DNA of 64,000 nt from Argopecten irradians (lineage: Eukaryota > Mollusca > Bivalvia > Pectinida > Pectinidae). The notes below the pieces were generated by a model, which had not been told where the DNA came from, searched no databases, and saw only the letters and a list, made by a program, of their open reading frames with translations. The position numbers were made by a program, and so were the translations under genes. The stretch is taken from contig NC_091143.1 in assembly GCF_041381155.1 (NCBI RefSeq), positions 34,958,679 to 35,022,678 on the forward strand, written 5' to 3'. Positions 15,126 to 57,139 of the stretch are shown here, one piece after another (positions within the stretch are counted from its first letter, which is position 1; each line of letters begins with the position of its first letter).

Positions 15126-15790
15126 TCATTTGGCTATCGCGGCACCCACATGGAATAGAGTCGTGCTCCAGAATATAAACTGCGTCTATATAATGACATT
15201 TTCTAATATACTTCATTATTTGTAGCACCTGTTTGTTAATGATATACACTTACTTATACTTGATGTGACATACTTGAATATGACGTAAAAGGTATATATG
15301 TAAAAAGCAAACTGTCAATGACGTCAATCGAAGTGTTCGCACCTAAAATACCAATATTAAAGTACTATTTATTTTAAATGACTGTTATACAAGGAAATAA
15401 AGTTTCAAAAATTAGTACCTGTGTTTCGATTCAAATTTAAATAAAATGTGTCATTTGAAAGAAAGAAAGAAAGAAGAAGACGATTGAAGGATGAGATATA
15501 AAATTTTATCCTTCATGTATGTCATCCACGATTCCAAATGGAGTGTAGCTCTCTGAATTCATTTGTGGAAATATTAGATTCTCCTCCATCTAGCTCTTTT
15601 TGAATAAAATTTTTATTATTTTTATGTGCCATGTGGCCGAAGACTGCAGCAACCATTTTACTTGAAAAGACGATGCTGACTTTACTGGTTATTTAAATGT
15701 TACTTTGGAATTATTTGTGTTTGGAGACGATTTTTTTTCTATAACCGATAATTAAGCAATATGCCTTAGTCTTGAAAATCTATAATAAAA
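15126..15790. other. LACC1 upstream region
   Basis: Unique AT-rich sequence, with a small (GAAA)n/(GAAGA)n run near 15458-15482. The non-coding first exon of LACC1 is expected here or further left, but I could not place it. Confidence 0.35.
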
Positions 15791-15893
15791 AATGGCAGAT
15801 TTTCTTCAATCAACTAATACGAAATGTAGAATGAAGTTATATTTATCTTTGTATTGTGCATATCGAACATTGGTGTGCTTCTTTTTCAGTACA

Positions 15894-17141
15894 ATGGCCA
15901 CCGGAACCGGATGTGCGTACATATTGGACATTTGGGCAGACGATCCCCAACAACCTAGTAATATGGTCGATGGTTTGTTACGTACACCTCCTACAGAAAA
16001 CAGCATCATACTGTTATTAGCAGGCGTTTCCTCGAAACAACCAGACACCGTGAAAACAGCATTGGCTGCACAACACCTGGAGCGAGTCATGACATTCGAA
16101 AATGAAGACAAGATGGCGGTATTTTACAAAGCGAAACTATATTTGGACAAACACAACATATCCGTCTTGTTCATGCTTTGTTCGAATAAATGTTCCAGAT
16201 ATTGGCATTTGATTCTATCTTCCATGTTAACGAATGTTTATGAATGGACCATTAAAGCTGTTGACCAGGCGGAAGCGGAAATTCCCCCAGAAGAACAAGT
16301 CACGAATGACGTCACCAGTTTCTTTGGTTCTCTGTCGACCTTCGGTGACATCATCACCCTTAAGTCACCAATCATACCATCCGATTTGTTCTTCCATGGC
16401 TTTAGTTGCCGAACTGGAGGGCTCTCTCATCTTCCAGGAATGAAATCATTAAATCTCGTTTTTTCACACGCAAAACGCGATTCTAAAATTTTGGTGAGCG
16501 AAAATAGAAGGAAACTGGCAAATCATGTCGGGTTCAATCCAGAAAAGTTTTTTGTAGCGAGAGCAGTACATGGAAATTATGTCCACGTGGTTGGGAAAAC
16601 GGAGGCCGAAGGATTCGATGGAATCGTCACGGACCAACCAGGAATAACTATTGGCGCTCCGGGTGCGGACTGCGTCACTTTGGTTTTTGCTGATCCCGTC
16701 AAACGGGCATGCGCAGCACTTCACTCTGGCTGGAAAGGTACCGTGAAACGGGCATGTGTTGAAGTTCTCCGGACAATGACCAAAGAATTCGGATCTAACC
16801 CAAGGGACGTCATTGTAGCCATGGGTCCATCTATTGGGCAGTGTTGTTTCGAATTTGACGTTGACCAAAGTGGTCAGTTTACGGATATAGTAGCGGAAGC
16901 GGTTGAAGTGAGGGATGGTGGAAATAAAGCTTATGTGAACTTGCAGCTGTGCAATCGCGTGCTTCTGGAACAAAATGGCGTCAAGCCTAACAATATTGAT
17001 GATGCCACGTGTACTAAATGCACCAGTTGTAACTCTGATTTATTTTTCTCGTACAGAAGAGATGGTCGACCGTTTGGGAACCAATTAGGATTCATAGGCA
17101 TCGCAATTAAAGATGCTCCACCTCCGACAGAGCATAAATGA
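15894..17141 (+). CDS. LACC1: LACC1/FAMIN-type purine nucleoside enzyme
   Basis: A single coding exon of 415 codons (human LACC1 has 430). The C-terminal two-thirds is the multicopper polyphenol-oxidase/YfiH fold. FHGFSCRTGG opens the domain. The metal/active-site residues are H226 (in AVHGNY), C260 (in GADCVT) and H277 (in HSGWKG), matching human H250, C284 and H301. The end carries CTSC and the RRDGRPFGNQLGFIGI segment. Known family role: purine nucleoside phosphorylase/adenosine deaminase activities in the cytosol that link purine metabolism to macrophage immunometabolism. I chose the ATG at 15894: it has a good context (acaATGG) and lies just after a pyrimidine-rich acceptor (cttctttttcag, ending at 15889), which suggests a non-coding first exon. 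An in-frame ATG at 15792 would add 34 unconserved residues. The last nine residues (DAPPPTEHK) and the TGA lie inside a MITE end that starts at 17111. Human LACC1 ends at about that point. A possible AATAAA is at 17769-17774. Confidence 0.93.
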   Translation: MATGTGCAYILDIWADDPQQPSNMVDGLLRTPPTENSIILLLAGVSSKQPDTVKTALAAQHLERVMTFENEDKMAVFYKAKLYLDKHNISVLFMLCSNKCSRYWHLILSSMLTNVYEWTIKAVDQAEAEIPPEEQVTNDVTSFFGSLSTFGDIITLKSPIIPSDLFFHGFSCRTGGLSHLPGMKSLNLVFSHAKRDSKILVSENRRKLANHVGFNPEKFFVARAVHGNYVHVVGKTEAEGFDGIVTDQPGITIGAPGADCVTLVFADPVKRACAALHSGWKGTVKRACVEVLRTMTKEFGSNPRDVIVAMGPSIGQCCFEFDVDQSGQFTDIVAEAVEVRDGGNKAYVNLQLCNRVLLEQNGVKPNNIDDATCTKCTSCNSDLFFSYRRDGRPFGNQLGFIGIAIKDAPPPTEHK

Positions 17142-19928: not shown

Positions 19929-21800
19929 GAATATAACGTCAGTGATTCTAACCCCACGAGTATCGATGATGGTCCAGAGGTGGATATAACGTCAGTGATT
20001 CTAACCCAACGAGTATCGAGGATGGTCCAGGGGTGGATATAATGTCAGTGATTCTAACCCAACGAGTATCGAGGATGGTCCAGGGGTGGATATTACGTCA
20101 GTGATTCCAACCCCACGAGTATCGAGGATGGTCCAGGGGTGGATATTACGTCAGTGATTCTAACCCCACGAGTATCGAGGATGGTCGAGAGGTGGATATA
20201 ATGTCAGTGATAGTTACCCAACGAGTATCGAGGATGGTCCAGGGGTGGATATAATGTCAGTGATTCTAACCCAACGAGTATCGAGGATGGTCCAGGGGTG
20301 GATATAACGTCAGTGATTCTAACCCCACGAGTATCGAGGATGGTCCAGGGGTGGATATAACGTCAGTGATTCTAACCCCACGAGTATCGAGGATGGTCCA
20401 GAGGTGGATATAACGTCAGTGATTCTAACCCTACGAGTATCGAGGATGGTCCAGTGGTGGATATTACGTCAGTGATTCTAACCCTACGAGTATCGAGGAT
20501 GGTCCAGAGGTGGATATAACGTCAGTGATTCTAACCCCACGAGTATCGAGGATGGTCCAGAGGTGGATATAACGTCAGTGATTCTAACCCCACGAGTATC
20601 GAGGATGGTCCAGAGGTGGATATAACGTCAGTGATTCTAACCCAACGAGTATCGAAGATGGTCCAGAGGTGGATATAACGTCAGTGATTCCAACCCCACG
20701 AGTATCGAGGATGGTCCAGAGATGGATATAACGTCAGTGATTCTAACCCTACGAGTATCGAGGATGGTCCAGGGGTGGATATAACGTCAGTGATTCTAAC
20801 CCTACGAGTATCGAGGATGGTCCAGAGGTGGATATAACGTCAGTGATTCTAACCCAACGAGTATCGAGGATGGTCCAGAGGTGGATATAACGTCAGTGAT
20901 TCTAACCCAACGAGTATCGAGGATGGTCCAGAGGTGGATATAACGTCAGTGATTCTAACCCAACGAGTATCGAGGATGGTCCAGGGGTGGATATAATGTC
21001 AGTGATCCTAACCCTACGAGTATCGAGGATGGTCGAGAGGTGGATATAATGTCAGTGATTCTAACCCAACGAGTATCGAGGATGGTCCAGGGGTGGATAT
21101 AATGTCAGTGATAGTTACCCAACGAGTATCGAAGATGGTCGAGAGGTGGATATAATAAACGTCAGTGAGTTGGATATAACGTCAGTGATTCTAACCCCAC
21201 GAGTATCGAGGATGGTCCAGAGGTGGATATAACGTCAGTGATTCTAACCCTACGAGTATCGAGGATGGTCCAGAGGTGGATATAACGTTAGTGATTCTAA
21301 CCCAACGAGTATCGAGGATGGTCCAGAGGTGGATATAACGTCAGTGATTCTAACCCAACGAGTATCGAAGATGGTCCAGAGGTGGATATAACGTCAGTGA
21401 TTCTAACCCCACGAGTATCGAGGATGGTCCAGGGGTGGATATAACGTCAGTGATTCTAACCCAACGAGTATCGAGGATGGTCCAGAGGTGGATATAACGT
21501 CAGTGATTCTAACCCAACGAGTATCGAGGATGGTCCAGGGGTGGATATAACGTCAGTGATTCTAACCCAACGAGTATCGAGGATGGTCCAGAGGTGGATA
21601 TAACGTCAGTGATTCTAACCCAACGAGTATCGAGGATGGTCCAGAGGTGGATATAACGTCAGTGATTCTAACCCAACGAGTATCGAGGATGGTCCAGGGG
21701 TGGATATAACGTCAGTGATTCTAACCACACTAGTATCGAGGATGGTCCAGGGGTGGATATTACGTCAGTGATAGTAACCCCGTGAGTATCTCGGATGCTA
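19929..21800. repeat. 53-bp satellite, about 35 units
   Basis: The unit reads TGGATATAACGTCAGTGATT, then CTAACCCAACGAGTATCGAG, then GATGGTCCAGAGG. Variants at few positions recur (CCCC/CCCA/CCCT, AGAGG/AGGGG). One disturbed unit lies near 21150. The reverse complement aligns with the outer 53 bp of MITE-A. Confidence 0.95.
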
Positions 21801-30366: not shown

Positions 30367-30462
30367 TCTACTGGATACGGCTGCTGACACAACAGTACAT
30401 CACGACCTGTGTCAGAACAAACTAAAGCGTCCACTCACTCTTCGTCTAGCTACAAAAGGATA

Positions 30463-31743
30463 ATGGCGTGTAGGAATTTACTGGTGTTCATTTTAGCTTT
30501 GTCATATTTTTGTCAAAACGTCTCTTGCCAGACCGGCGATGACGTCAAACAATTAGTGACGCAATTGTTTACTACCGACGGATACAACAAAATCGTTCGT
30601 CCGAGTTTCAACCAGTCGCTTCCCATGTCTATGTGGGTTAATATGTTCCTGGTCAGTGTAACCGATATTGATGAGGTCAAGGAGAAGATGATATCAGCTG
30701 TTTATCTACATGTGTTCTGGACAGATTACTACCTTACCTGGAACCCTGACGATTATAACGGTATTGACCATCTTTACATTCCTCAGAGTGAAATCTGGAA
30801 ACCTGATATTGCTTTGTTAAATGGACACAGTAAATTGAAAGAGTTAGGAGATAATGTGATTTTGACGTATATTAAAAATGATGGTGCCGTGCAATGGTTT
30901 CCATCGGAAGTATTTGAAACAAAGTGTAGCATCGATATCACTCATTTTCCTTTTGACGAGCAAATTTGTGACATTGAAATAGGAATCTGGACGAGTTTGA
31001 TAGAAGACATTATCGTCCAGATGGGTCAAACAGGCATAACTCTTAAAGAATATCAGGAAAATGGAGAATGGGATTTGCTCAGAACGTCATCTAAAGCTGA
31101 GATAACAGAAGACCATGAGACCATTGTTCGATTCACTGTTCACGTTAGAAGGAAACCAGGGTATGTCATATACAATCTTGTGTTACCCGTACTTCTTCTC
31201 TCAATACTGGCGGTATTTACGTTTATGATTCCGGTCGAAAGTGGTGAGAAGATGGGATTCTGCATAACAATGTTCTTGGCATTTGCAGTGTTTATCACCA
31301 TTGTAAGTGCACAACTTCCGGCGAGTTCGAGTCAATCTTTACTCAGCAAATATTTGATATTCCTGGTTGTAATGGGTACAATTATCACTATGGTAACGGC
31401 TATGGAACTGAGGATCAACTACAGAAGCACAGAAAGTTTTCCAATTCCTAAATGGCTTAAAGCTCTACTGAGGACAAGCAGGGTAATTCTTTGTCGACAG
31501 GGGTGTAGGAAAGCTGGACCTACCACAATCAACGTAAAACCAAAATCTGTAAAAGTTACCGACGTCAGTGCGGAATCAATAGATCCAGAAAAGGACTTAG
31601 AGGACAAAGGTCGGTTTGACAAAAACTCAGACGAAAACATCGAATGGAGCGATGTTGTATCCGCTTTGGACTTTTACTTGATCGCTGACATTGTTGGAAC
31701 TGTTCTTCTGTTGGTCACCGGATATTTACAAAGTAAAAAATAG
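30463..31743 (+). CDS. Cys-loop ligand-gated channel subunit, nicotinic-receptor-like
   Basis: An uninterrupted frame of 426 codons. A signal peptide (about residues 1-22, ending near VSCQ) is followed by an extracellular domain with the family pattern WTDYYLTW, then IWKPDIALLN, then a Cys-loop with 13 residues between its cysteines (CSIDITHFPFDEQIC). Four membrane segments follow, with M4 near the C-terminus and a short charged M3-M4 loop. M2 reads GEKMGFCITMFLAFAVF: Glu at -1' argues for cation selectivity and Leu9' is kept, but position 2' is Gly and 20' is Ala instead of the acidic outer-ring residue. Loop C lacks the vicinal cysteine pair, so this is a non-alpha-type subunit. The ligand cannot be inferred. 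I chose the ATG at 30463; the frame opens earlier at 30409, but with GTG. A GATATAAGG at about 30358 may be a TATA box and AATAAA occurs at 31997-32002. Intronless members of this superfamily may reflect lineage-specific expansion by retrocopying (inference). Confidence 0.9.
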   Translation: MACRNLLVFILALSYFCQNVSCQTGDDVKQLVTQLFTTDGYNKIVRPSFNQSLPMSMWVNMFLVSVTDIDEVKEKMISAVYLHVFWTDYYLTWNPDDYNGIDHLYIPQSEIWKPDIALLNGHSKLKELGDNVILTYIKNDGAVQWFPSEVFETKCSIDITHFPFDEQICDIEIGIWTSLIEDIIVQMGQTGITLKEYQENGEWDLLRTSSKAEITEDHETIVRFTVHVRRKPGYVIYNLVLPVLLLSILAVFTFMIPVESGEKMGFCITMFLAFAVFITIVSAQLPASSSQSLLSKYLIFLVVMGTIITMVTAMELRINYRSTESFPIPKWLKALLRTSRVILCRQGCRKAGPTTINVKPKSVKVTDVSAESIDPEKDLEDKGRFDKNSDENIEWSDVVSALDFYLIADIVGTVLLLVTGYLQSKK

Positions 31744-34135: not shown

Positions 34136-35383
34136 TGAAGTTCAATGCTAAAAATGACTATTTACTACTCCGATCCTGTCTGATCCTGACAGATTTTGTC
34201 CGATTTTCGGTTACGTCATAACAGTGTTCCATCTCTTCTTTGTGATGCGAAGGACTCGTTAATGCTTTTGTAGAGTAGAATCCGGTTAAACAAACGCTCA
34301 TAGCAAACGAAACAACATGGTTATTTGATGATAGAAATGTGTTACGAACCATAGCCTGTGAGATTCTTACTGAAATGTACACTTTTCCTCATATTTTATC
34401 AAAATTTGCAATCTACACAACCATTTATGGATATTAATGATAGTAATATTTAATGATAGTCCTGACGCATGCTCACTTTTTATCAACTTAGTTACGTTCA
34501 AGTAAACCGAAGAAGTGATAAGCTAACGAAATATCACTAGTCACAGTAAAAACATGGTCTAAAACCTTAATAATTATATCATTAAAAAATTATGAATAAT
34601 TATACATTTGGACATTATCTTTTTCCATAATAAAAAGGCACCTATTGATGACAAGGCAAACTGAAATTATGGCTTTCAAATATTGTAAGTTATCGGAAGA
34701 CAGTTTTTCCTGAGTGAAAACGTGAAAGTGAAAGTGACATTTATTTTTTGCACTTAAATTGTTATATCATATATTTATATGGAAAGAGCAAATAAAATTA
34801 TATTCAAATGAAAACAAATATCGCGTGTTTTTTAACGTGGCGATGGTCTGTGGATATTTTGAGGAAATTGTTTGCAAATTATTTTCTCTATTAGAAAATA
34901 TCTTATATGGAAATTACGACAACATTAAGACACGATAGTTATAAAAGGCAATATTGTATTGATAAAAAATGATAAGTTTTCATGATTGATATATCGGAAG
35001 CAAAAACAATTTTCATGTGAATATGCTTCATACGGTATTTTAGCTTGTCTGCTATTTCATAGAGATTTACATGGTATCAAAATAAAATTTAATTCCCCTT
35101 CACTATGATGCTGTCTGTTAAGCTCAGAGCATGTTAGAATGTAATTACATGTCTTATTTGAATTTGATTGCTTGGCTAGCGAAGTTGATTAAATTACATC
35201 TTCTAGGGTTTTGACATTTTTTCCATAATATCTGACATCAAATATATTTTCCAAGTGAATGACACAGCTGATATACAATGCACACACTCCTAAGATGTAT
35301 GCATGTGTGTATATATCGTAATACACCTGATGATAATGGTCATTGAATATGCATTAGAAAAAAACCCTCCGCGGAGATAACGA

Positions 35384-35713
35384 CATGGAACAGTCCAATG
35401 TTTCCCCGTAGACATTAGTGTTAAAACTCGGGCTTTGCTTAAGCAATATGGGTTATCCCACTACCTAAAGGGAAAACAGCATTCAAAGCGTAATCTCATA
35501 AATCCTGCAGTCTTGAATCATATATAGAGGCATGTGTTATTTATTAAAACAAAGAAGAAATTATTGAATTTATTTTTTCCAGTTATCATGCAATTTTGTG
35601 TCATTTTGAGCATATTTTTATGATTTGCTATTTTTAGCGCACCACAACCATTCAAGGCTGTTTGTAATGTTTATTGGTATATTAGACGACTGCTCCTTGT
35701 GACGTCATCATTC
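35384..35713. promoter_or_regulatory. Conserved core 1
   Basis: ATGGAACAGTCC block, TTGCTTAAGCAA palindrome, CTATTTTTAG (MEF2-type) and GTGACGTCATCATTC (CRE). Conserved at both ends, with a divergent middle of about 170 bp. Confidence 0.55.
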
Positions 35714-36418
35714 ACAGACCGATTGCTAAGTTTGTCTTACTAACATCAAATATTGGAAAACAATCCCCTTTTAATCGAAATGTATTCATACTGCAGTTTT
35801 TCACAACATAATAATGTTCAGTATTCAAAATTAATTGTTGCGTTTTATAATTCAGTTGTTATGTATCAAATGTAAATAATTGAAAGAAAATTCAACAATG
35901 AACTTGTAAACATATAGTTTACCTACCGGTATTATACAGTACAAAATACATGTATATTCATTAATTTAAAAAAAATGAATTAATTGAATTATATTTTTAA
36001 TGTGAGCGAAGCTATGACATCCTAACCGTTGGTCCGTTAAGTCTGCCTATATTATCAAGGTTTTTTTTCTTTGCCTGATATTTATATAAGGCAAAAAAAA
36101 AAAAAAAAACAAATAAACAAAATAAAAAAAACTACATACATGTAGGCAGGTCCAGCGGACTACATCCGGTCTAGTTATCACAGTATATTAAAATATAGGT
36201 ATATATATTAATATTAATTAATAATTTAATTCAGTGAAACGAAACATAATTTCATTTCAGAGGTTGGTTTGGCTTTCGTTTTATACTATTTGTTGCTGAT
36301 CACCTGTATATAAACATGGTTCATGTGTACCCAAGTGTTGTTTTCATTCGCCTCTTGTTTTGATCACTTCATTTACTACAAATATATATATCGATAACCA
36401 CCTCAACGTCAATAACAA

Positions 36419-36760
36419 CATGGAACATTCCAAACGTCACCCGTAGACGTCAGTGTTAAAATTATCGCTTTGCTTAAGCAAGATTTTACAGTATGGGCTA
36501 TCCCATTACCTATAGGGGACATTAGCTCTTCTGACGTCACTTTATACATATTTGATTATTAATCTACACATTAGTGTTTATTTCTTCTAAAAATCAACAA
36601 ATATTTTCTATTAGATTATGTCATATTATACTACCTTTATTTCATTTAATATTTGTGTATATTTCTGTTTTGGACTATTTACAGAACATCAAAACCAGTC
36701 AAGGCTAACTGTCATGTGTATTTGTATATCAATATACTGCACCTTGTGACGTCATCATTC
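36419..36760. promoter_or_regulatory. Conserved core 2
   Basis: Same order of sites. The MEF2-type site is changed to CTATTTACAG. GGGCTATCCCATTACCTATA and the CRE are kept, and a further GACGTCAC lies mid-core. Confidence 0.55.
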
Positions 36761-38173
36761 AGACACCGACTTGTGAGCTGGTTGCAGTGATGTCGATAAG
36801 TTCTGTAATGCGGGATGAGTGTTTTGCATAGTAGAAGTGGATGGTACGAGACCACTGGATGAAACCTACTTTTGTTAAAATTGTTTCATTCGTCTAGGAC
36901 TCGCTAGTTTTAATAACTTTAATGTTATCCGATATAATCTAAATTGAAATTCAGTTTTAAAGGATTTTTAACATTTTTCATCAGTTCGTAATTTCAATGC
37001 TTCTTTGTTCGAGTATGGCATAGTGTATTATTTTTTTCTTTACTTTGAATATCATAATATCAAATAGTTTTAAATAGTTCAACGTTATAACTCGAAAAAT
37101 GAAAATGAATAAAATCTTAAGCTGCTGAAGTATTGCTATGATGTATATCATTTATCCGCAAAAAAATATCATTGGCTGGCAAAACAATCTGAGATGTTCC
37201 AAACTGTCTTTGTATAGCGTTTTATTTCGTCCTAATTATGTGTTTGATGACCCGGATAGTATTTCAAATAAACGTGACAAAATGATGATACAACAACGCA
37301 TTATACACTTTTAACTTCAGTAGAGATATAAACATCTATTTCCATATAACCTATATTACATTATTTCTGTTTATCTAAAGTAACTTACAAAAATATGAAT
37401 AATTATACATTTATACATTTTTTTTCATAATGAAAGGGCACCTATTTATGACAAGGCAAACTGAAATTATGGCTTTCAAATATTATAAGTTATCGGAAGG
37501 TAGTTTTTTCCTGAGTGAAAAAGTGAAAGTGACATTTACTATGCACTTAAATTGTAATATCATATATTTATATGGAAAAGGCAAATAAAATTATATTCAA
37601 ATGCAAACAAATATCGTTTTTTTTAACGTGGCGATGGTCTGTGGATATTTTGAGGAAATTGTTTGCAAATTATTTTCTCTATTAGAAAATATCTTATATG
37701 GAAATTACGACAATATTAAGACACGATAGTTATAAAAGGCAATATTGTATTGATAAAAAATGATAAGTTTTCATGATTGATATATCGGGAGCAAAAAACA
37801 ATTTTCATGTGAATATGCTTCATACGGTATTTTAGCTTGTCTGCTATTTCATAGAGATTTACATGGTATCAAAATAAACTTTAATTCCGCTTCACTGTGA
37901 CGCTGTCTGTTAAGCTCAGAGCATGTCAGAGTGGAATTACATGTCTCATTTTAATTTGATTGCCTGGCTAGCGAAGTTGACTAAATTACATCTTCTAGGG
38001 TTTTGACATTTTTTCATAATATCTGACATCAAATATATTTTCCAAGTGAATGACACAGCTGATATACAATGCACACACTCCTAAGATGTATGTATGTGTG
38101 TATATATCGTAATACACCTGATGATCATGGTCATTGAATATGCATTAGGAAAAACCCTCAGCGGAGATAACGA

Positions 38174-38503
38174 CATGGAACAGTCCAATCTTTCACCGTA
38201 GACGTTAGTGTTAAACTGGGGCTTTGCTTAAGCAATATGGGTTATCCCACCACCTAAAGGGAAAACAGCGTTCAAAGCGTAATCTCATAAATACTGCAGT
38301 CTTGAATCATATATAAATACATATGTTAGTTATTAAAACAAAGAAGAAATTATTGTATTTATATTTTTTCAGTTATCATGCAATTTTGTGTCATTTTGAG
38401 CATATTTTTATGATTTGCTATTTTTAGCGCACCACAACCATTCAAGGCTGTTTGTAATGTTTATTGGTATATAAGACGACTGCTCCTTGTGACGTCATCA
38501 TTC
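38174..38503. promoter_or_regulatory. Conserved core 3
   Basis: Duplicate of core 1 with all three palindromic sites present. Confidence 0.55.
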
Positions 38504-39201
38504 ACAGAACGATTGCTAACTTTGTCTTAATAACATCAAATATTGGAAAACAATCCCCTTTTAATCGAAATGTATTCATACTGCAGTTTTTCACAACATA
38601 ATAATGTTCAGTATTCAAAATTAATTGTTGCGTTTTATAATTCAGTTGTTATGTATCAAATGTAAATAATTGAAAGAAAATTCAACAATGAACTTGTAAA
38701 CATATAGTTTACCTACCGGTATTATACAGTACAAAATACATGTATATTCATTTATTTAAAAAAAATGAATTAATTGAATTATATTTTTAATGTGAGCGAA
38801 GCTATGACATCCTAACCGTTGGTCCGTTAAGTCTGCCTATATTATCAAGGTTTTTTTTCTTTGCCTGATATTTATATAAGGCAAAAACAAAAAATAATAA
38901 AATGAAATAAAAAAAACCTACATACATGTAGGCAGGTCCAGCGGATTACATCCGGTCTAGTTATCACAGTATATTAAAATATAGGTATATAAATTTCGGA
39001 AATATTTTAATTCAGTGAAATGAAACATAATTTCATATCAGAGGTTGGTTTGGCTTTCGTTTTATACTATTTGTTGCTGATCACCTGTACATAAACATGG
39101 TTCATGTGTACCCAAGTGTTGTTTTCATTCACCTTTTGTTTTGATCACTTCATTTACTACAAATATATATCTATCGATAACCACCTCGACGTCAATAACA
39201 A

Positions 39202-39544
39202 CATGGAACATTCCAAATGTCACCCGTAGACGTCAGTGTTAAAATTATCGCTTTGCTTAAGCAAGATTTTACAGTATGGGCTATCCCACTACCTATAGGG
39301 GACATTAGCTCTTCTGACGTCACTTTATACATATTTGATTATTAATCAACACATTAGTGTTTATTTCTTCTAGAAAATCAACAAATATTTTCTATTAGAT
39401 TATATCGTATTATACTGCCTTTATTTTATTTCATATTTGTGTATATTTCTGTTTTGGACTATTTATAGAACATCAAAACCAGTCAAGGCTAACTGTCGTG
39501 TGTATTTGTATATCAATATACTGCACCTTGTGACGTCATCATTC
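39202..39544. promoter_or_regulatory. Conserved core 4
   Basis: Duplicate of core 2, but with an intact CTATTTATAG. Confidence 0.55.
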
Positions 39545-40439
39545 AGACACCGACATATGAGCTGGTTGCAGTGATGTCGATAAGTTCTGTGATGCGGGAT
39601 GAGTGTTTTGCATAGGAGAGGTGGATGGTACGAAACCACTGGATAAAACCTACTTTTGTTTAAGTTGTTTCATTCGTCTAGGACTTGCGAGTTATAATAG
39701 TTTTAATGTTATCCGATATAATCTAAATTGAAATTCAGTTCTAAAGGATTTTTAACATTTTTCATCAGTTCGTAATTTCAATGCTTCATTGGTCTGGTGT
39801 GGTATAGTGTATTATATTTTTCTTTACTTTAAATATTATTATATCAAATAGTTTTAAATAGTTCAACGTTATAACTCGAAAAATGAAAATGAATAAAATC
39901 TTAAGCTGCTGAAGTATTGCTATGATGTATATCATTAAACCACAACAAATTATCATTGGCTGGCAAAACAATCTGAGATGTTCGAAACTGTCTTTGTATA
40001 GCGTTTTATTTCGTCCTAATTATGTGTTTGATGACCCGGATTGTATTTCAAATTGAAGTGACAAAATGATGATACAACAACGCATTATATACTTTTAACT
40101 TCAGTAGAGATATATACCTCTATTTTCATATAACCTATATTAGATTATTTCTGTTTTCCCTGATACACCTGTATGTGAACAGAATCTAAAGTAGCTTACA
40201 TACATAACTAATGTAGGTAAACAATAGTATTGACGATGTGCTAGTATAGTGTACAGTTTATGTCATCAATAAAAATCTTCAGTGAACCAGATTGTAACCA
40301 TTTATTTGTTATAGATATTTTCAGTTTGTAGACCTGTATCAAATCGCATTATCAATGATATTACTTTGATTCGTCCTACATTCTATGTGTAGCCAATACA
40401 TTGGGACATATTTTTAGTTTCACCTCTAGTAAACAGCAA

Positions 40440-40776
40440 CATGGAACATTCCCAATCTTTTCCGTAGACGTCAGTGTTAAAATTTTCCAATTGCTTAAGC
40501 TAGATTCACAATATGGGCTATCCCACTACCTATAGGGGATATAGCTATTTGATATACATTTGACTATATATCCACAAATAAAGAATTATTTCTGCTAAAA
40601 ATCAACAGATATTTTCTTTCAAATATTATCATCTTTCAGTAAGTGTGTTTGGTTTGTTTTACATCTTATTGTGTATATTTCTATTTTGGACTATTTATAG
40701 AACAACAAAACCAGTCAAGGCTAACTGTCGTGTGTATTTGTATATCAATATACTGCACCTTGTGACGTCATCATTC
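40440..40776. promoter_or_regulatory. Conserved core 5
   Basis: TTGCTTAAGCTA (one change), CTATTTATAG, GTATATCAATATAC and GTGACGTCATCATTC are present. Flanks are clearly diverged from cores 1-4. Confidence 0.55.
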
Positions 40777-41129
40777 AGAGTAGGATTTGTAAACCTGTCG
40801 CACCGATATTGATGACTGTGATGCGGGTTGTGAAATGAAGCATAAATTTCCTGTTTACCTGGATCTATCACTTTCTGGTGGATGATATTAATACTTGTTG
40901 TTCTTCACTAAACCATAATACAGATGTACCAAGTACAGGGAATGGTACAAAAGAGGCACGTTAGATGTAGTTAGTACAATTGTTAAAACCTGAATGAAAA
41001 TTACAGGTGTTTCATTCGTCTAAAACTCGCCAGTAATGCTAGCTTTAATGGCATTGGAATTTATTTTGAAATGTTTTGTATCATTCTATGATTTTGGACA
41101 GTGTTAAACGTTTGGTTTGTTTAGTTTTA

Positions 41130-41330
41130 TGTCCTATTTAACAGCCATGGTCATGTAAGGACGTGCCAGGTTTGTTGGTGGAGGAAAGCCGGAGTACCCG
41201 GAGAAAAACCACCAGTCAGCGGTCAGTACCTGGCAACTGCCCCACATGGGATTCGAACCCGCATCACAGAGGTGGAGGGCTTGTGGTAATATGTCGGGAC
41301 ATCTTAACCACTCGGCAACCGCCCCAAGTG
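41130..41330 (-). mobile_element. tRNA-derived SINE, good copy
   Basis: The minus strand starts GGCGGTTGCCGAGTGGTTAA (A-box) with GGGTTCGAATCCC (B-box), a long-variable-arm Leu/Ser-like head. The body is GGTGGTTTTTCTCCGGGTAC and the tail ACATGACCATGGCTGTTAAA. Confidence 0.85.
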
Positions 41331-41917
41331 TTAAACGATGCAGGTCTTAACAACACAGTGTTAAACGATGCAGGTGTTAAGAAATACATGTATCACTGCA
41401 TAGTCTTTTTTTGCATTGATGACACAAATAATATTTTCAATATGTGACTAAACTATGATTTTCCAACTCCTTGTTTCCTGTCTTGATTTTTATTGAATGA
41501 AAACATTTAAACTGTAAATATTTTCATATAAACTAAAAGTATATTTCTACTTTCCCTGATGCATCCGAATGGGAACAGAAAGTAGATTGACACAATCTTT
41601 TTGTTATTTACCCATATAATGAACGACAATTGGTAAAGGTGATCTGCTAATTCTTTTTATGGCAACAATAAAAATAGTTAGTGAACAGAATTATCACTAT
41701 TTACATGTGTATTTGCATGAAGATATTTCCCATGTTGTACATCTGTGTATAAGCATAATATTCCTGATATTGTTTCGATATTGTTTGCTCCATCCTCGAT
41801 ATTCCATGGGTTACTAAAACTGACCTTAATATTGCTCATTCCTTACTCTATCTAAATTCTATATATAGCCAATACATTGTTACAATGTTTCTAGTTTCAC
41901 CTCTACTAAAATAGCAA

Positions 41918-42246
41918 CATGGAAAATTCCCAATCTCGTCAGTGTTAAATATTTCCATTGCTTAAGCAAAATTTACATTATGGGCTATCCCACTACCTAT
42001 AGGGGATACAGCTCTATTTTATAGATATTTGACTATATATCCATAAATAAAGAACTATTTCTGCCAAAAAATCAACAGATATTTTCTTTCAAATTTTGTC
42101 ATCTTTCAGTAACTGTGTTTGGTTTGTTTAACATCGTATTGTGTATATTTCTATATCGGACTATTTATAGAACATCAAAGCCAGTCAAGGCTAACTGCTG
42201 TGTGTATTAGTATATCAATCTACTGCACCTTGTGACGTCACCATTC
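41918..42246. promoter_or_regulatory. Conserved core 6
   Basis: TTGCTTAAGCAA, CTATTTATAG and GTGACGTCACCATTC. The first block is slightly shortened. Confidence 0.55.
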
Positions 42247-42550
42247 TCAGTAGGATTTTGTGAGCTGGTTGCACTGATGTTGATAACTGTGCTGTAACCT
42301 AAATCAATCAAATTCTGGTGTATGTAGTAAAATGTATAGTTCTGTACCAAACCTCATACATGCACATGTAGTAATTTAAACACAATTGTTACAAACCTGA
42401 ACGAAACTCACAGGTGTTTTGTTCGTCTAGCACTCGCCATTAATGCTATCTTTCATGTTGTTGAAATTTGTTTTTTAAAATATTATGCATCATTTTACTA
42501 TTTTGGAGATTAAACACTACCAGTGGTAAGAAATATTACTTCTTAATTTT

Positions 42551-42884
42551 AGATGCATTTGATGGACGGATAGTATGGTATTTTTTCACTATCAAAAACA
42601 GGAGCAGACGAAGTTACTTACTTTACACTATTACCTCCATTGAAAAGTTTGAGCTTCTAATTTTACTTCAAGTTAAAAATATGAAAAATAATTAATTGCA
42701 TTCCGAAAAAATTCCGTGCCACTATATCCTATATGGAATGAAGTACTGATTGCCCATGCACCAAAGGAGAAATAAATTATTTTATATTATTTTTGTGTTA
42801 ATTAGACATATATATATACGATTAAACACCAATTATTGTTCAAATGATGAATATCATTTATGCTCTGTCGGCGGTGGAGCATCT
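42551..42884 (-). mobile_element. MITE-E copy, reverse orientation
   Basis: The minus strand begins AGATGCTCCACCGCCGACAG right after TTAA (42885-42888) and runs through GCATAAATGATATTCATC to a decayed far end (AGATGCATTTGATGGACGG on the plus strand). Confidence 0.8.
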
Positions 42885-43243
42885 TTAAATAGAAAGTGAA
42901 AATTTTTTGATACACTAACCAATTTTTCCCTGTTATAGTTTTACATCTATTTTTATTCAAACTAAAATTACTTTTTTCCCCTAGTGCATCTGCATGTGAA
43001 CAGAACGCATATAGTAATTCACACACACACTTCCTACCTGTAGTAGCTAACAAAGATGGACAAATTTTATGTCATAATTAAAAACCTTCGGTAAACCAAA
43101 TTTTTACTAAATTTGCATTTAGTTATTTTCAATTATATAGACATTGATATTGGCATACTCAATTCATGTAAATGATATTTCCAGACTTCATCTAAATTCT
43201 ATATATAAAATAATCGCCACAAACCCCTTTACTAAAATAGCAA

Positions 43244-43554
43244 CATGGAACATTTCTAAAATTTTCCCATTGCTTAAGCAAGATTTACGATATGGGCTAT
43301 TCCACTACCTGTAGGGGATACAGCTCTGTTTTATATATATTTGACTATATATCCATAAATAAAGAATAGATAACAGAAAAAATCAACATATTTTCTTTCG
43401 GATATTGTCATGTTCTGTTCTGCTTGATTTCTTTTTAATTTCATGTTTGTGTAAGTTTCTATTTTTGACTATTTATAGAACAACAAAGCCAGTCACGGCT
43501 AACTGTCGTGTGTATTGGTATATCAATATACTGCACCTTGTGACGTCATCATTC
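43244..43554. promoter_or_regulatory. Conserved core 7
   Basis: TTGCTTAAGCAA, CTATTTATAG, GTATATCAATATAC and GTGACGTCATCATTC. The first block has a deletion. Last recognisable unit of the array. Confidence 0.55.
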
Positions 43555-43910
43555 AGACACCGACATGTGAGCTGGTTGCACTGATCTTGATATCTGTGAT
43601 ACGGGATGTTATATAAAGCATAGAAATGTATCATGTTCACATGCATCAATCAAATTTGGAGTATGATGTTGATTAAAACTGATTGATTGATTGTTCTGTA
43701 CCAAACCACCTGGGAGAATAGGATGATACAAAACACACAATAGATATGTTTAGGTTTTAGACTCTGTTTAAACAGAGATTTAAATAGTATTGAAATCTCT
43801 GGTTTTAAACTAGTGTAGTATTACATACATAGAGAGAAAAATGTCTATAGAGCCAAACGCCTGTGGTATGCCTATACTTACTGTTCAGTATATGTTACCC
43901 CATCCTCGAT

Positions 43911-44192
43911 ATTCCAGGGGTTACTATCACTGAAGTAATATCCACCCTTGGACTATCTCAAAGTAAAATTGGATGCAGTTTAGCGGAAAATAGCTGAACC
44001 AATCAAAGACCTGCAAAGATTTCCTATGGAGACTACAGAGAGAGAGAGCGACGCCCACCAGTACCGTTATACGGCTCTTTTGATGCACATCAAAACGACT
44101 AAATTACTGTTCTGTTCTGTTGCCATCAATGTTACAATGAGTTAGACCAAGGGTGTAGAGATCGTAAGTGGTCGCAAACCCTATCGAGGATA
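43911..44192. mobile_element. MITE-A copy, reverse internal orientation
   Basis: CATCCTCGATATTCCAGGGG at the left, CCCTATCGAGGAT at the right, with CTTTTGATGCACATCAAAA inside. Confidence 0.75.
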
Positions 44193-44395: not shown

Positions 44396-44672
44396 TTTGT
44401 TATTTTTCAGCATTTTTACTAAAAATTTAAATATTATAAAGTACACAGTTATATCATCAACGGCTTTGCCAGGGAACTTACAAATAACGACATTGCTTTC
44501 ATATATGAACGATAAACAAATAAGTTCTGCGACATCACACGTGCTTCTTATATTTCTGCACGTGATTTTCCACAACAGATATATCCGTAGTTAATTTAAT
44601 ATCAGCTAGACTGCGTATGAATTTGAAATCAGAACAAAGATTTGTATAAGTCGTTTATTCTGTATTTGCATA

Positions 44673-44813
44673 TTACAGAGTTATCTGCCGTAACAATCGA
44701 TACCTACCCGCAAGGGAGCTAACTCTGTAACATGCAAACACGGAATAGCTCATGCGGTTGAGTCTCCGCACTCTGATCCGAAGGTCCAGAGTTTGACTCA
44801 TCGCTATAGCATC
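44673..44813 (+). repeat. Inverted pair and tRNA-like sequence
   Basis: TTACAGAGTTATCTGCC and GGGAGCTAACTCTGTAA form a pair. A tRNA-like stretch follows (ATAGCTCATGCGGTTGAG, AGAGTTTGACTCAT) whose acceptor ends do not pair. Confidence 0.45.
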
Positions 44814-49561: not shown

Positions 49562-50350
49562 CTACCACGTGACCATGTTCTGTGACATATATGGGTGCGG
49601 AAGGTGGTGTACTTGATGATGCACTTGGTGGTGCATTTCGGGAGGGGAAGTCTGCTGGAAAAATGACGGCGTTGTCGTCGGCGGAGAAATTCCAACATTA
49701 CTTTGCATGCCACTATTACTAAGTCCGTTATGACCGTAAGGGTACGGCATTTTGTTGTATCCAACCGCTGATGACGTCATGGGAACGTAAACCTTACCGC
49801 CGTTAACCCCGGAAAAGGAATCGCCCACTTCTTTCATGCTCTTTCTAGCTCGCCTCCGTGCTTGCCTGCGCCGGAAGTCGCCACGTGAAAAGTCATCAAT
49901 GCATGCTGGGTGAATGGACCAGTAGTTCCCTTTGCCGTTTTCAGACCGCCCTTTCTTGACGAAACATTCATTCAGAGACAAGTTGTGTCGCACACTGTTC
50001 CTCCAAGCCTTATTTGTATTGTTGTAAAAACTGAAATTGTCCATGAAATATTGGTAAATGTCACAAAGAAGCATTTTCCGAGTCGGACAACTTAGAATTG
50101 CCATAGAAATCAAAGCGATGTAGGACTGCGCTGGTTTCGCATCAGAACAGTCTCCAATGCCTGCCTTCATAGATTTCTCCAAGGATAGAAGCACTTTCGC
50201 CATGGATTCTGGATTTTCCGACTCGGATCCGCTCGAGCTGGGGACTGGAGAATGTCGTAGACTGTCCTCGCTACCAAAGCTGTTGTGTCGTGTTCCGTAA
50301 CCATCTTCCTTGCTTGTCAAGTAATCGATGGAAAATGGTTGAGATATCAT
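49562..50350 (-). CDS. foxQ2: FoxQ2-type forkhead transcription factor, intronless
   Basis: A complete 262-codon frame. The forkhead domain covers about residues 72-163: KPAQSYIALISMAILS, the recognition helix WRNSVRHNLSLNECF, wing 1 (KGRSENGKGNYW), and the basic tail GDFRRRQARRRARK that is typical of FoxQ2. The N-terminus carries FSIDYL at residues 6-11, an EH1-like Groucho-binding motif in the position known for lophotrochozoan FoxQ2 proteins. The rest is Ser-rich before the domain and His/Met/Pro-rich after it (QVHHQVHHLPHPYM). Known role: nuclear DNA-binding regulator of anterior/apical organ patterning in larvae. No neighbouring gene is related. The promoter has a TATA box and two CCAAT boxes (separate entry). 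The nearest downstream AATAAA on this strand is at 48556-48561, about 1 kb away, so the 3' end is unsure. Assignment to FoxQ2 rather than another Fox class rests on the domain tail and the EH1 motif. Confidence 0.88.
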   Translation of the reverse strand: MISQPFSIDYLTSKEDGYGTRHNSFGSEDSLRHSPVPSSSGSESENPESMAKVLLSLEKSMKAGIGDCSDAKPAQSYIALISMAILSCPTRKMLLCDIYQYFMDNFSFYNNTNKAWRNSVRHNLSLNECFVKKGRSENGKGNYWSIHPACIDDFSRGDFRRRQARRRARKSMKEVGDSFSGVNGGKVYVPMTSSAVGYNKMPYPYGHNGLSNSGMQSNVGISPPTTTPSFFQQTSPPEMHHQVHHQVHHLPHPYMSQNMVTW

Positions 50351-50523
50351 TTTGAAGTATTATTTTCGGCAGTACAGCGCGGAATCAAGAAGTCTTATTA
50401 GTCAATAGGCCAAACTCGTAACCTCGCAAAAACAATGCAATCGAGTCTTTGCCAAATAATGCTCTAAGACGTTCTTTCTTGTCAGTTCCGTTAGCGGACT
50501 AAAGTGAGAGCGAATAAAAACAT

Positions 50524-51814: not shown

Positions 51815-52740
51815 TTGATCGTTTGGCACTCTCTTTCCTTTGTCAGTTTGTCACCTCTCGTCTTTCTTATTTTCCTTTATCTTTCTATTTGTCACTCTCC
51901 TTTCCCTTTCTTCTTTCCTTTATCTGTTTGTCACCTTACTCTTCCTTATTTTTTTCTTTCCTTTTTCTGTTTTTTCACTGTCCTCTCCCTTTTTTCTTCT
52001 TTCTTTTATCTGTTTGTCACTTTCCTCTTCCTTATTTCTTCTTTCCTTTATTAGTTTGTCACCCTCCTCTCCCTTCTTTCTTCTTTCCTTTTTCAGTTTG
52101 TCACCCTCCTCTACTTTTTTCTTCTTTCCTTTATCTGTTTCTCACCCACCTCTCCTTTCTTTTTTCTTTGAATTATCTGTTTGTCAACCTCCTTTCCCTT
52201 TTTTCTTCTTTCCTTTATCTGTTTGTCACTGTCCTCTTCCTTTTTTCTTCTTTCCTTTATCTGTTTGTCAACCTCATCTCCCTTTTTCTTCTTTACTTTA
52301 TCTGTGTGTCTCTTTCCTCTCCCTTATTTTTTCTTTCCTTTATCTGTTTGTCAACCTCCTCTCCCTCCTTTCTTCTTTACTTTATCTGTGTGTCTCTTTC
52401 CTCTCCCTTATTTTTTCTTTCCTTTATCTGTTTGTCAACCTCCTCTCCCTCCTTTCTTCTTTACTTTATCTGTGTGTCTCTTTCCTCTTCCTTATTTTTT
52501 CTTTCCTTTATCTGTTTGTCAACCTCCTCTCCCTTCTTTCTTCTTTCCTTTATCTGTTTGTCACCTTCCGCTCCCTTCTTTCTTCTTTACCACTTTCCTC
52601 TTCCTTATTTTTTCTTTCCTTTATCTGTGTCTCTTTCCTCTCCCTTCTTTCATCTTTACTATCTTTCTACTTGTCACGCTCCTCTCCCTTCTTTCTTCTT
52701 TTCTTTGTCACATTCCTTTTTCTTTTTTTTTCGTCTTTTC
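51815..52740 (+). repeat. Polypyrimidine minisatellite, about 0.95 kb
   Basis: Units of about 40 bp built from CTTTCCTTTATCTGTTTGTC and CTCCTCTCCC. Almost no purines on the plus strand, so all three forward frames stay open for 200-330 codons. These are not genes. Confidence 0.9.
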
Positions 52741-55129: not shown

Positions 55130-55860
55130 TTAAAATAAGGTAGGCTAAAATAGAAATTTAAATCCTTAGTTAAAATAAGGAATCTTCCAGTCAGAGATTA
55201 CATCAATGTTGAAATAAAGAATATCATGTCTACTAAAATAAGGATGCTATGCAATAGACGTTATATTATAAGTAAAATAAGGAATATCATGTCAGCTAAA
55301 TAAGGATTCTATACCATAGATTACATTACAAGTAAAATAAGGAATATCATGTCAGCTAAATAAGGATGCTATGCCATAGATTACATTACAAGTAAAATAA
55401 GGAATATCATGTCAGCTAAATAAGGATTCTATACCATAGATTACATTACAAGTAAAATAAGGAATATCATGTCAGCTAAATAAGGATGCTATGCCATAGA
55501 TTACATTACAAGTAAAATAAGGAATATCATGTCAGCTAAATAAGGATGCTATGCCATAGATTACATTACAAGTAAAATAAGGAATATCATGTCAGCTAAA
55601 TAAGGATACTATGCCATAGATTACATTACAATTAAAATAAGGAATATCATGTCAGCTAAATAAGGATGCTATGCCATAGATTACATTACAAGTAAAATAA
55701 GGAATAATCATGTCAGCTAAATAAGGATGCTATGCCATAGATTACATTACAAGTAAAATAAGGAATATCATGTCAGCTAAATAAGGATGCTATGACCATA
55801 GATTACATTACAAGTAAAGTAATGAATATCATGTCAGCTAAAAGGGATCCATATTAAATA
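55130..55860 (+). repeat. 60-bp minisatellite
   Basis: About nine near-identical units (AAGTAAAATAAGGAATATCA, TGTCAGCTAAATAAGGATGC, TATGCCATAGATTACATTAC) with decayed units at both sides. GATTCTATACC and GATGCTATGCC variants alternate in part. Confidence 0.9.
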
Positions 55861-56049
55861 GACATAACAGGTTAAATAAGGCAGTTAAAAAAGCAAATAA
55901 GGATTCTTATTCCACTAATTACATCGCCATTAAAATAAGGATTATCATTTTAACTCACGTAAAAATCGGGTTGACGAAAATACAGTTATAGTTATAAGTA
56001 TGATCATTCGATGATAGGAGTGATCGTTTGAAAATTAAAATTCATTATT

Positions 56050-57130
56050 TAAATTCAAATAAAGTATAATCCATGATGTGAAATAAGGTCATTAAAATAA
56101 GTATAATCAATGATGTGAAATAAGGTCATTTAAATAAGTCTAACCCCATGACGTGAAATAAATATAATCAATGATGTGACATAAGGTCATTAAAATAAGT
56201 ATAATCCATGATGTGAAATAAGTATAATCAATTACGTGAAATAAGGTCATTAAAATAAGTATAATCCATGATGTGAAATAAGTATAATCAATGATGTGAC
56301 ATAAGGTCATTAAAATAAGTATAACTCCATGATGTGAAATAAGGTCATTTAAATAAGTCTAACCCCATGACGTGAAATAAATATAATCAATGATGTGACA
56401 TAAGGTCATTAAAATAAGTATAATCCATGATGTGAAATAAGTATAATCAATTACGTGAAATAAGGTCATTAAAATAAGTATAATCCATGATGTGAAATAA
56501 GTATAATCAATGATGTGACATAAGGTCATTAAAATAAGTATAATCCATGATGTGAAATAAGGTCATTAAAATAAGTATAATCCATGATGTGAAATAAGTA
56601 TAATCAATGATGTGACATAAGGTCATTAAAATAAGTATAATCCATGATGTGAAATAAGGTCATTAAAATAAGTATAATCCATGATGTGAAATAAATATAA
56701 TCAATGATGTGACATAAGGTCATTAAAATAAGTATAATCCATGATGTGAAATAAGGTCATTTAAATAAGTATAATCAATGACGTGAAATAAGGTCATTAA
56801 AATAAGTATAATCCATGATGTGAAATAAATATAATCAATGATGTGACATAAGGTCATTAAAATAAGTCTAACCCCATGACGTGAAATAAATATAATCAAT
56901 GATGTGACATAAGGTCATTAAAATAAGTCTAACCCCATGACGTGAAATAAATATAATCAATGATGTGACATAAGGTCATTAAAATAAGTCTAACCCCATG
57001 ACGTGAAATAAGTATAATCAATGATGTGACATAAGGTCATTAAAATAAGTCTAACCCCATGACGTGAAATAAGTATAATCTATGATGTGAAATAAGGTCA
57101 TTAAAATAAGTATAATCAAACACGTGAAAT
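56050..57130 (+). repeat. 37/60-bp composite minisatellite
   Basis: Built from AATAAGTATAATCCATGATG + TGAAATAAGGTCATTAA and shorter pieces such as ATAATCAATGATGTGACATA, in higher-order groups. It shares the AATAAGG word with the 55-kb array, as does the DNA around both. Confidence 0.9.
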
Positions 57131-57139
57131 AAGCTTAGT

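Follow-up and report, generated by a model that had tools for sequence, protein, structure and literature searches.

Seven tandem non-coding cores at a single locus of the Argopecten irradians genome: a possible amplified cis-regulatory module

Organization of the array

We analyzed a window of 64 kb from contig NC_091143.1 of Argopecten irradians (assembly GCF_041381155.1), to which all positions below refer. Flanked by a nicotinic acetylcholine receptor (nAChR)-like open reading frame (ORF) and a forkhead ORF, both pointing at it, the segment 35384-43555 holds an array of seven homologous non-coding cores of ~310-345 bp each, arranged head to tail; all of them lie inside the interval in which a preliminary description of this DNA had placed a seven-core array. 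Matches between cores, other than self-matches, have E values from 1.8e-188 to 1.6e-10, therefore chance similarity is excluded, and recognizable homology between units extends to about 43708.

The cores share a common plan, composed of a block A, a diverged middle and an 87-bp block B running from CTATTTATAG to TGACGTCATCATTCA. The middle keeps a length of 150-156 bp in 7/7 cores, though identity between copies falls to 46%. Block A contains the words CATGGAACATTCC, TTGCTTAAGCAA (a palindrome) and GGGCTATCCC/CCTATAGGGG, core 4 reading ATGGGCTATCCCACTACCTATAGGGGA, and block B carries a cAMP-response element (CRE), TGACGTCA, a type of site recognized by CREB/ATF bZIP proteins. CRE-to-CRE spacing across the array is 1.04-1.74 kb. 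Two subtypes were distinguished, alpha (cores 1 and 3) and beta (cores 2, 4, 5, 6 and 7), with block B identity of 72-75% between alpha and beta copies (about 26% apart) and of 89-98% among beta copies.

All blocks are given on the + strand. Core 1 (alpha) has its block A at 35384..35474, with TTGCTTAAGCAA at 35435, and its block B at 35628..35714, reaching from CTATTTTTAG to the CRE (35700) and CATTCA. For core 2 (beta) the blocks lie at 36419..36519 (palindrome at 36470) and 36675..36761, the latter with CTATTTACAG, which breaks the MEF2 consensus, and a CRE at 36747. Core 3 (alpha) occupies 38174..38263 (palindrome at 38224) and 38418..38504 (CRE at 38490), and core 4 (beta) 39202..39302 (palindrome at 39253) and 39459..39545 (CRE at 39531). 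The palindrome of core 5 (beta; block A 40440..40539, block B 40691..40777, CRE at 40763) is changed at 40491 to TTGCTTAAGCTA. Core 6 (beta) extends over 41918..42006 (palindrome at 41958) and 42161..42247 (CRE at 42233), its block B showing 6 changes that are private to it among the beta copies; finally, core 7 (beta) has a block A at 43244..43318, the left part of which is shortened by a deletion (palindrome at 43270), and a block B at 43469..43555 (CRE at 43541). Cores 1 and 2 belong to the first copy (34582..37384, + strand) and cores 3 and 4 to the second copy (37385..40180, + strand, right edge approximate) of a recent 2.79-kb duplication.

Motifs within the cores

The motif inventory of the preliminary description was confirmed at the level of the letters: the CRE is intact in 7/7 cores, with TGACGTCA at one fixed block-B place in every core, the palindrome TTGCTTAAGCAA is exact in 6/7 (core 5 ends GCTA), and a MEF2-type CTA-W4-TAG is present in 6/7, the exception being core 2; cores 1 and 3, said to differ inside the MEF2 site and yet keep its consensus, indeed both read CTATTTTTAG. 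The start of the MEF2-like site precedes that of the CRE by exactly 72 bp in 7/7 cores, and the palindrome lies 265-278 bp from the CRE. Block B has no indel in any of the seven copies, despite the ~26% site difference of cores 1 and 3 from the rest; within it, CTATTTNNAG stands exactly 72 bp ahead of the extended CRE, CCTTGTGACGTCATCATTC. A second perfect TGACGTCA occurs in cores 2 and 4 (at 36532 and 39315), and the window has 19 copies of the octamer, 9 of them in the array, versus 0.68 expected. The 16-place form of the extended CRE, TTGTGACGTCATNATT, is found in the array at 35697, 36744, 38487, 39528, 40760 and 43538.

Genomic distribution of the cores and of the extended CRE

Whole-core DNA queries against the 846-Mb genome, using core 4 and core 3, returned 7 matches each, all within the array. 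Degenerate patterns for block A (27 places) and block B (32 places, without the CRE), allowing up to 3 mismatches, found the same 7 places, with 0 for the controls, and a block-B query at E values up to 10 again gave 7 matches, all in the array; these genome DNA searches score only the best candidates, and strongly diverged relatives could escape them. Scattered genome-wide copies, taken in the preliminary description as the sign of a mobile repeat, were looked for and none was found beyond the seven array places. An ordinary dispersed mobile repeat was thus rejected, there being, among the candidates scored, no core, block-A or block-B match outside the array. When satellite DNA is taken as a comparison class, the array resembles it in its head-to-tail copies and differs from it in having seven heterogeneous copies, spaced as given above and alike mainly in their blocks; satellite DNA in the sense of many near-identical copies was rejected, since the copies are seven and their middles as low as 46% identical.

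A different picture was obtained for the CRE and its surroundings. When up to 1 mismatch is allowed, the word TTGTGACGTCATCATTC is found at 184 + 173 places in the genome, compared with 4 + 3 for the control. Exact places amount to 69, of which 6 are in the array and 62 were fetched, the remaining one being on C1093. Among the 62 fetched, 58, at 57 loci, are members of a dispersed repeat family of ~650 bp, 3 lie in a second repeat type (L052, and L072 twice) and 1 is in neither (L060). From the one-mismatch places (about 288 in total, 31 listed) 20 were fetched; 1 is clearly of the ~650-bp family and 9 more match it weakly around the motif. The ~650-bp repeat, seen at 57 loci (the 60 of L019-L078 less L052, L060 and L072), carries the extended CRE near its centre and, towards the right end, a long palindromic stretch. 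Cores and the ~650-bp family share 17-33 bp only; homology of the cores to this family was rejected beyond that length, similarity ending at the motif.

The 16-place word TTGTGACGTCATNATT has 836 + 796 = 1,632 places, versus 2 + 1 = 3 for the reversed control and an expectation of ~31 that we calculated from the base composition around the genome's TGACGTCA octamers. Moreover, the extended CRE recurs in several unrelated repeat types and sequence contexts, as expected of a protein-binding word. Its distribution suggests a word that recurs as a binding site, one that is carried around by repeats, or a combination of the two. Searches of papers in PubMed Central brought up no account of this array or of a TGACGTCA excess in molluscs. 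Two further observations were made on these words. A stretch of the window at 44645-44747 resembles, with 75-86% identity in pieces, the second of the CRE-carrying repeats (L052, L072), and in G000:C8:10807434-10807895 four TTGCTTAAGCAA copies stand exactly 150 bp apart and probably form an unrelated tandem repeat.

Coding potential and RNA structure

The preliminary description had stated that no coding frame is present. Five of the six frames reach a stop in block B in 7/7 copies, while the sixth, a forward frame, is stopped in only 1/7 (core 6) and is open across block B in the other six. Nevertheless, no sign of coding constraint was detected in this open frame: with core 6 left out, the proportion of nonsynonymous differences between alpha and beta (pN, 0.225-0.242) is about equal to that of synonymous ones (pS, 0.175-0.229), and changes are flat by codon phase (11, 10 and 12). 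As a check for hidden exons, the intervals between the array and its neighbors were examined and contain no ORF of at least 110 amino acids; ORFs of 73-99 amino acids are present there and fall outside the Pfam search.

With regard to RNA, Rfam gave 0 matches in the window at gathering level, and a permissive scan of 34400-44000 yielded 8 sub-threshold rows, all in 36025-36188 or 38815-38956 and none inside a core; no tRNA was found. RNAalifold on the seven cores predicted 38 pairs, of which 2 had a double change, with an unfavorable covariation term (+0.76), and a scan of both strands in 58 windows, each 100 columns wide, reached at most 0.55 for the structure conservation index (SCI) and gave -1.6 as its best mean z-score. 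A structured RNA or microRNA family was therefore rejected on Rfam, folds and covariation, and the tandem non-coding RNA family suggested earlier is not supported in its structured form.

Evolutionary rates of blocks, middles and spacers

Parsimony changes per gap-free column over the seven copies were 0.37 in block A (68 columns), 1.08 in the middle (109) and 0.40 in block B (88). For copies 4-7, the bins covering blocks A and B had 0.10-0.28 changes per four-way aligned column and those of the middle 0.33-0.75, whereas most spacer bins reached 0.8-1.3; the spacers, however, align badly, their rates being partly misalignment, and a few bins with 12 columns or fewer come out lower. Block B was more alike than the middle by at least 3 points in 20 of the 21 copy pairs, the exception being cores 5 and 6 (92 vs 91). 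Among the two-state gap-free sites of block B, 27 agree with the tree and 4 conflict. Slower evolution of the blocks than of neighboring DNA thus holds in the older comparisons.

Within the blocks, the three named palindromes showed a mean of 0.10 changes per column (30 columns) compared with 0.45 in the remaining block columns (129). In a circular-shift test of the three motifs jointly, from which 3 gapped TTGCTTAAGCAA columns were dropped, 1 of 156 shifts was as low, a figure to be read knowing that the motifs were picked after their conservation had been noticed. Tested singly, the CRE had no change in any of its 8 columns across the 7 copies, but 6.4% of the circular shifts within the blocks were equally slow; for TTGCTTAAGCAA the figure was 4.5%. 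Both belong to the slowest columns, in agreement with the conservation attributed to them in the preliminary description.

For the recent duplication, an initial count gave 15/459 differing sites in blocks A and B versus 126/2062 in the spacer (p = 0.018); with exact block edges the counts were 10/365 and 131/2133 (p = 0.007). The spacer counts here include ragged alignment ends, and on trimming these the difference loses significance.

Interpretation of the array

Our reading of these data, which we put forward at somewhat less than an even chance, is that the array may be a single-locus, tandemly amplified cis-regulatory module. A module of ~310-345 bp would have arisen at this locus and would have been multiplied, presumably by unequal crossing-over, most recently as the 2.79-kb alpha+beta pair. 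Blocks A and B would then be two constrained protein-binding blocks per copy, with a CREB/ATF-type bZIP protein at the CRE end and further partners at the other words, and the copies might act jointly, with a possible effect of dosage, on a neighboring gene, for which the forkhead and the nAChR-like gene are the likeliest candidates. Of the two alternatives offered in the preliminary description, an enhancer or a non-coding RNA family, the first agrees with a multi-copy, non-coding, single-locus module and the second is not supported as a structured RNA family; a cAMP- or activity-responsive enhancer, as predicted from the sites, fits the data.

Among known systems, tandemly duplicated enhancers and paralogous conserved non-coding elements are the closest class. 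Like members of this class, the array is single-locus and non-coding, with copies in register, two constrained stretches and clustered candidate sites; it differs in having two subtypes ~26% apart in block B, and it is known from sequence alone. As in a cAMP-response element, a perfect palindrome is present in 7/7 cores, with a second site in two of them; it is, however, a predicted site whose octamer is so abundant in the genome that its presence says little. The MEF2 site is defined as YTAWWWWTAR, a consensus found in 6/7 cores, but the array site shows no lower rate than its block and reads equally well, in 7/7, as a 3' splice site.

Several results weigh against a cis-regulatory role. TGACGTCA has 75,543 copies genome-wide versus 16,482 when the pattern is reversed; its abundance makes an intact CRE a weak argument by itself, and the weight placed on it in the preliminary description is not supported. 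Its extended form is carried in part by dispersed repeats, and TTGCTTAAGCAA is not enriched genome-wide (50 vs 55 for the control). The MEF2-like site, also stressed in the preliminary description, has 2 changes in 10 columns and is no slower than its block, 28% of circular shifts being as slow, apart from its broken consensus in core 2. Because cores 1 and 3, and cores 2 and 4, are halves of the recent duplication, the seven cores are reduced to about five independent lineages. When this duplication is trimmed to 34600-37300 the spacer shows 96/2003 differing sites versus 10/365 in blocks A and B (p = 0.097), and comparison of the blocks (10/365) with the middles (15/308) gives p = 0.16; the duplication alone therefore provides no demonstration of constraint. 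Cores 5 and 6 differ equally in block A (8/93), middle (12/129) and block B (9/108), and between cores 4 and 5 a high-identity tract with sharp edges, block B being 98% identical and the middle 68%, could be explained by gene conversion. The earlier claim that uniform decay is insufficient consequently stands for the older comparisons, in which the blocks are slower, and does not extend to the pair of cores 5 and 6 or to the trimmed duplication.

These same observations on cores 4-5 and 5-6, on the trimmed duplication and on the commonness of TGACGTCA and its extended form speak for an old tandem duplication devoid of present function, whose high-identity patches come from local gene conversion and uneven alignment quality. 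We consider this unlikely: in almost every pair blocks A and B change more slowly than the middle, tree-consistent sites in block B outnumber conflicting ones by 27 to 4, and conversion would have to strike the two blocks repeatedly and yet spare the alpha copies. Far less probable, and largely refuted, is that the cores are remnants of a dispersed mobile element; the 19-bp CRE context TTGTGACGTCATCATTCAG is identical to one in the ~650-bp dispersed family, but the likeness ends at the motif, within the 17-33 bp mentioned, and the searches, within their sensitivity, found no copy of a core or block elsewhere. A stronger competitor, though still improbable in our judgment, is a tandem family of transcribed units, in which the cores would supply promoters or exons, either for non-coding RNAs that lack structure or for very short reading frames. 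One form of this idea makes CTATTTNNAG a 3' splice site opening a block-B exon, block A then holding an upstream exon with an ATG; another takes CTATAAATAG on the minus strand as a TATA box, activated through the CRE. Judged by the splice consensus, a TAG or CAG closes CTATTTNNAG in 7/7 cores, preceded by a stretch with 65-75% pyrimidines, which also counts against a regulatory module, and core 2, the sole core that breaks the MEF2 consensus, reads CAG, a better acceptor. Block A has CAACATGGA or CGACATGGA in 7/7, each opening a frame of 4-9 codons, and the forward block-B frame is open in 6/7; with acceptor and ATG both in 7/7, an unstructured spliced transcript remains conceivable. On the minus strand of cores 4-7 the CRE is followed 60-70 bp on by TATAAATAG. 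On the other hand, the Rfam, covariation and SCI results were negative, the open frame shows no coding constraint, the minus-strand TATA box is absent from cores 1, 2 and 3, no matching conserved splice donor was identified, and little is conserved more than about 40 bp past block B. It was the loss of significance of the duplication on trimming, together with the acceptor reading in 7/7, that made us lower the cis-regulatory reading and raise that of transcribed units.

A bolder extension of the cis-regulatory reading, to which we give little credence, is that the array might be a locus-specific homotypic bZIP hub, its module amplified by unequal crossing-over into two functional subtypes, that reads the extended CRE TTGTGACGTCATNATT found at ~1,600 genome places and in several unrelated repeat types; one bZIP protein would then link repeats and single-locus control DNA. 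If functional, the array would be a compact, naturally occurring example of a control element changing in copy number beside a forkhead gene; its repeated copies would act as internal replicates by which constrained words can be told from decaying spacers. The extended CRE word, with 1,632 places versus 3 for its control, may be the more general lead.

Neighboring genes and other features of the window

The nAChR-like ORF, a possible target, lies to the left of the array as a single exon (30388..31743, + strand), with matches to Neur_chan_LBD (5.8e-47) and Neur_chan_memb (5.5e-17) and nAChR alpha-3 as its best PDB match. It has at least 97 other matches in the genome (from the best 98 of 329 candidates scored); among the matches listed, two span the full length, at 79% and 61%, and a third, on the same contig about 1.7 Mb off, is partial, at 91%. 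Intronless nAChR expansions have been described in molluscs (PMC6896357). To the right of the array is the forkhead ORF (49562..50359, - strand), also a single exon and a possible target, with a Forkhead match of 3.2e-31, PDB matches to forkhead domains and a best other match in the genome that is 61% identical. Judged by its sequence features, it is a putative FoxQ2-like gene. Since the array is unique, none of these receptor or forkhead matches carries a copy of it. FoxQ2 paralogues are treated in a study that has a scallop among the species covered (PMC12828049).

The spacer after core 5 includes, at about 41120-41350, a repeat-like insertion with a tRNA-like GATTCGAACC segment, by eye possibly a short interspersed element (SINE), of which a 59-bp stretch recurs in L060 at 88%. 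At 19931-21780 there are tandem arrays whose 53-bp unit, repeated with about 94-96% matches, includes ATAACGTCAGTGAT; a similar word, ATCCTCGATATTCCA, appears again in stretches at 41774 and 43884. Elsewhere in the window, a 450-amino acid ORF at 15789-17141 has a Cu-oxidase_4 (multi-copper polyphenol oxidoreductase laccase) domain, and 51832-52706 and 55212-57133 contain a long pyrimidine-rich 42-bp array and 60-bp-type tandem arrays.

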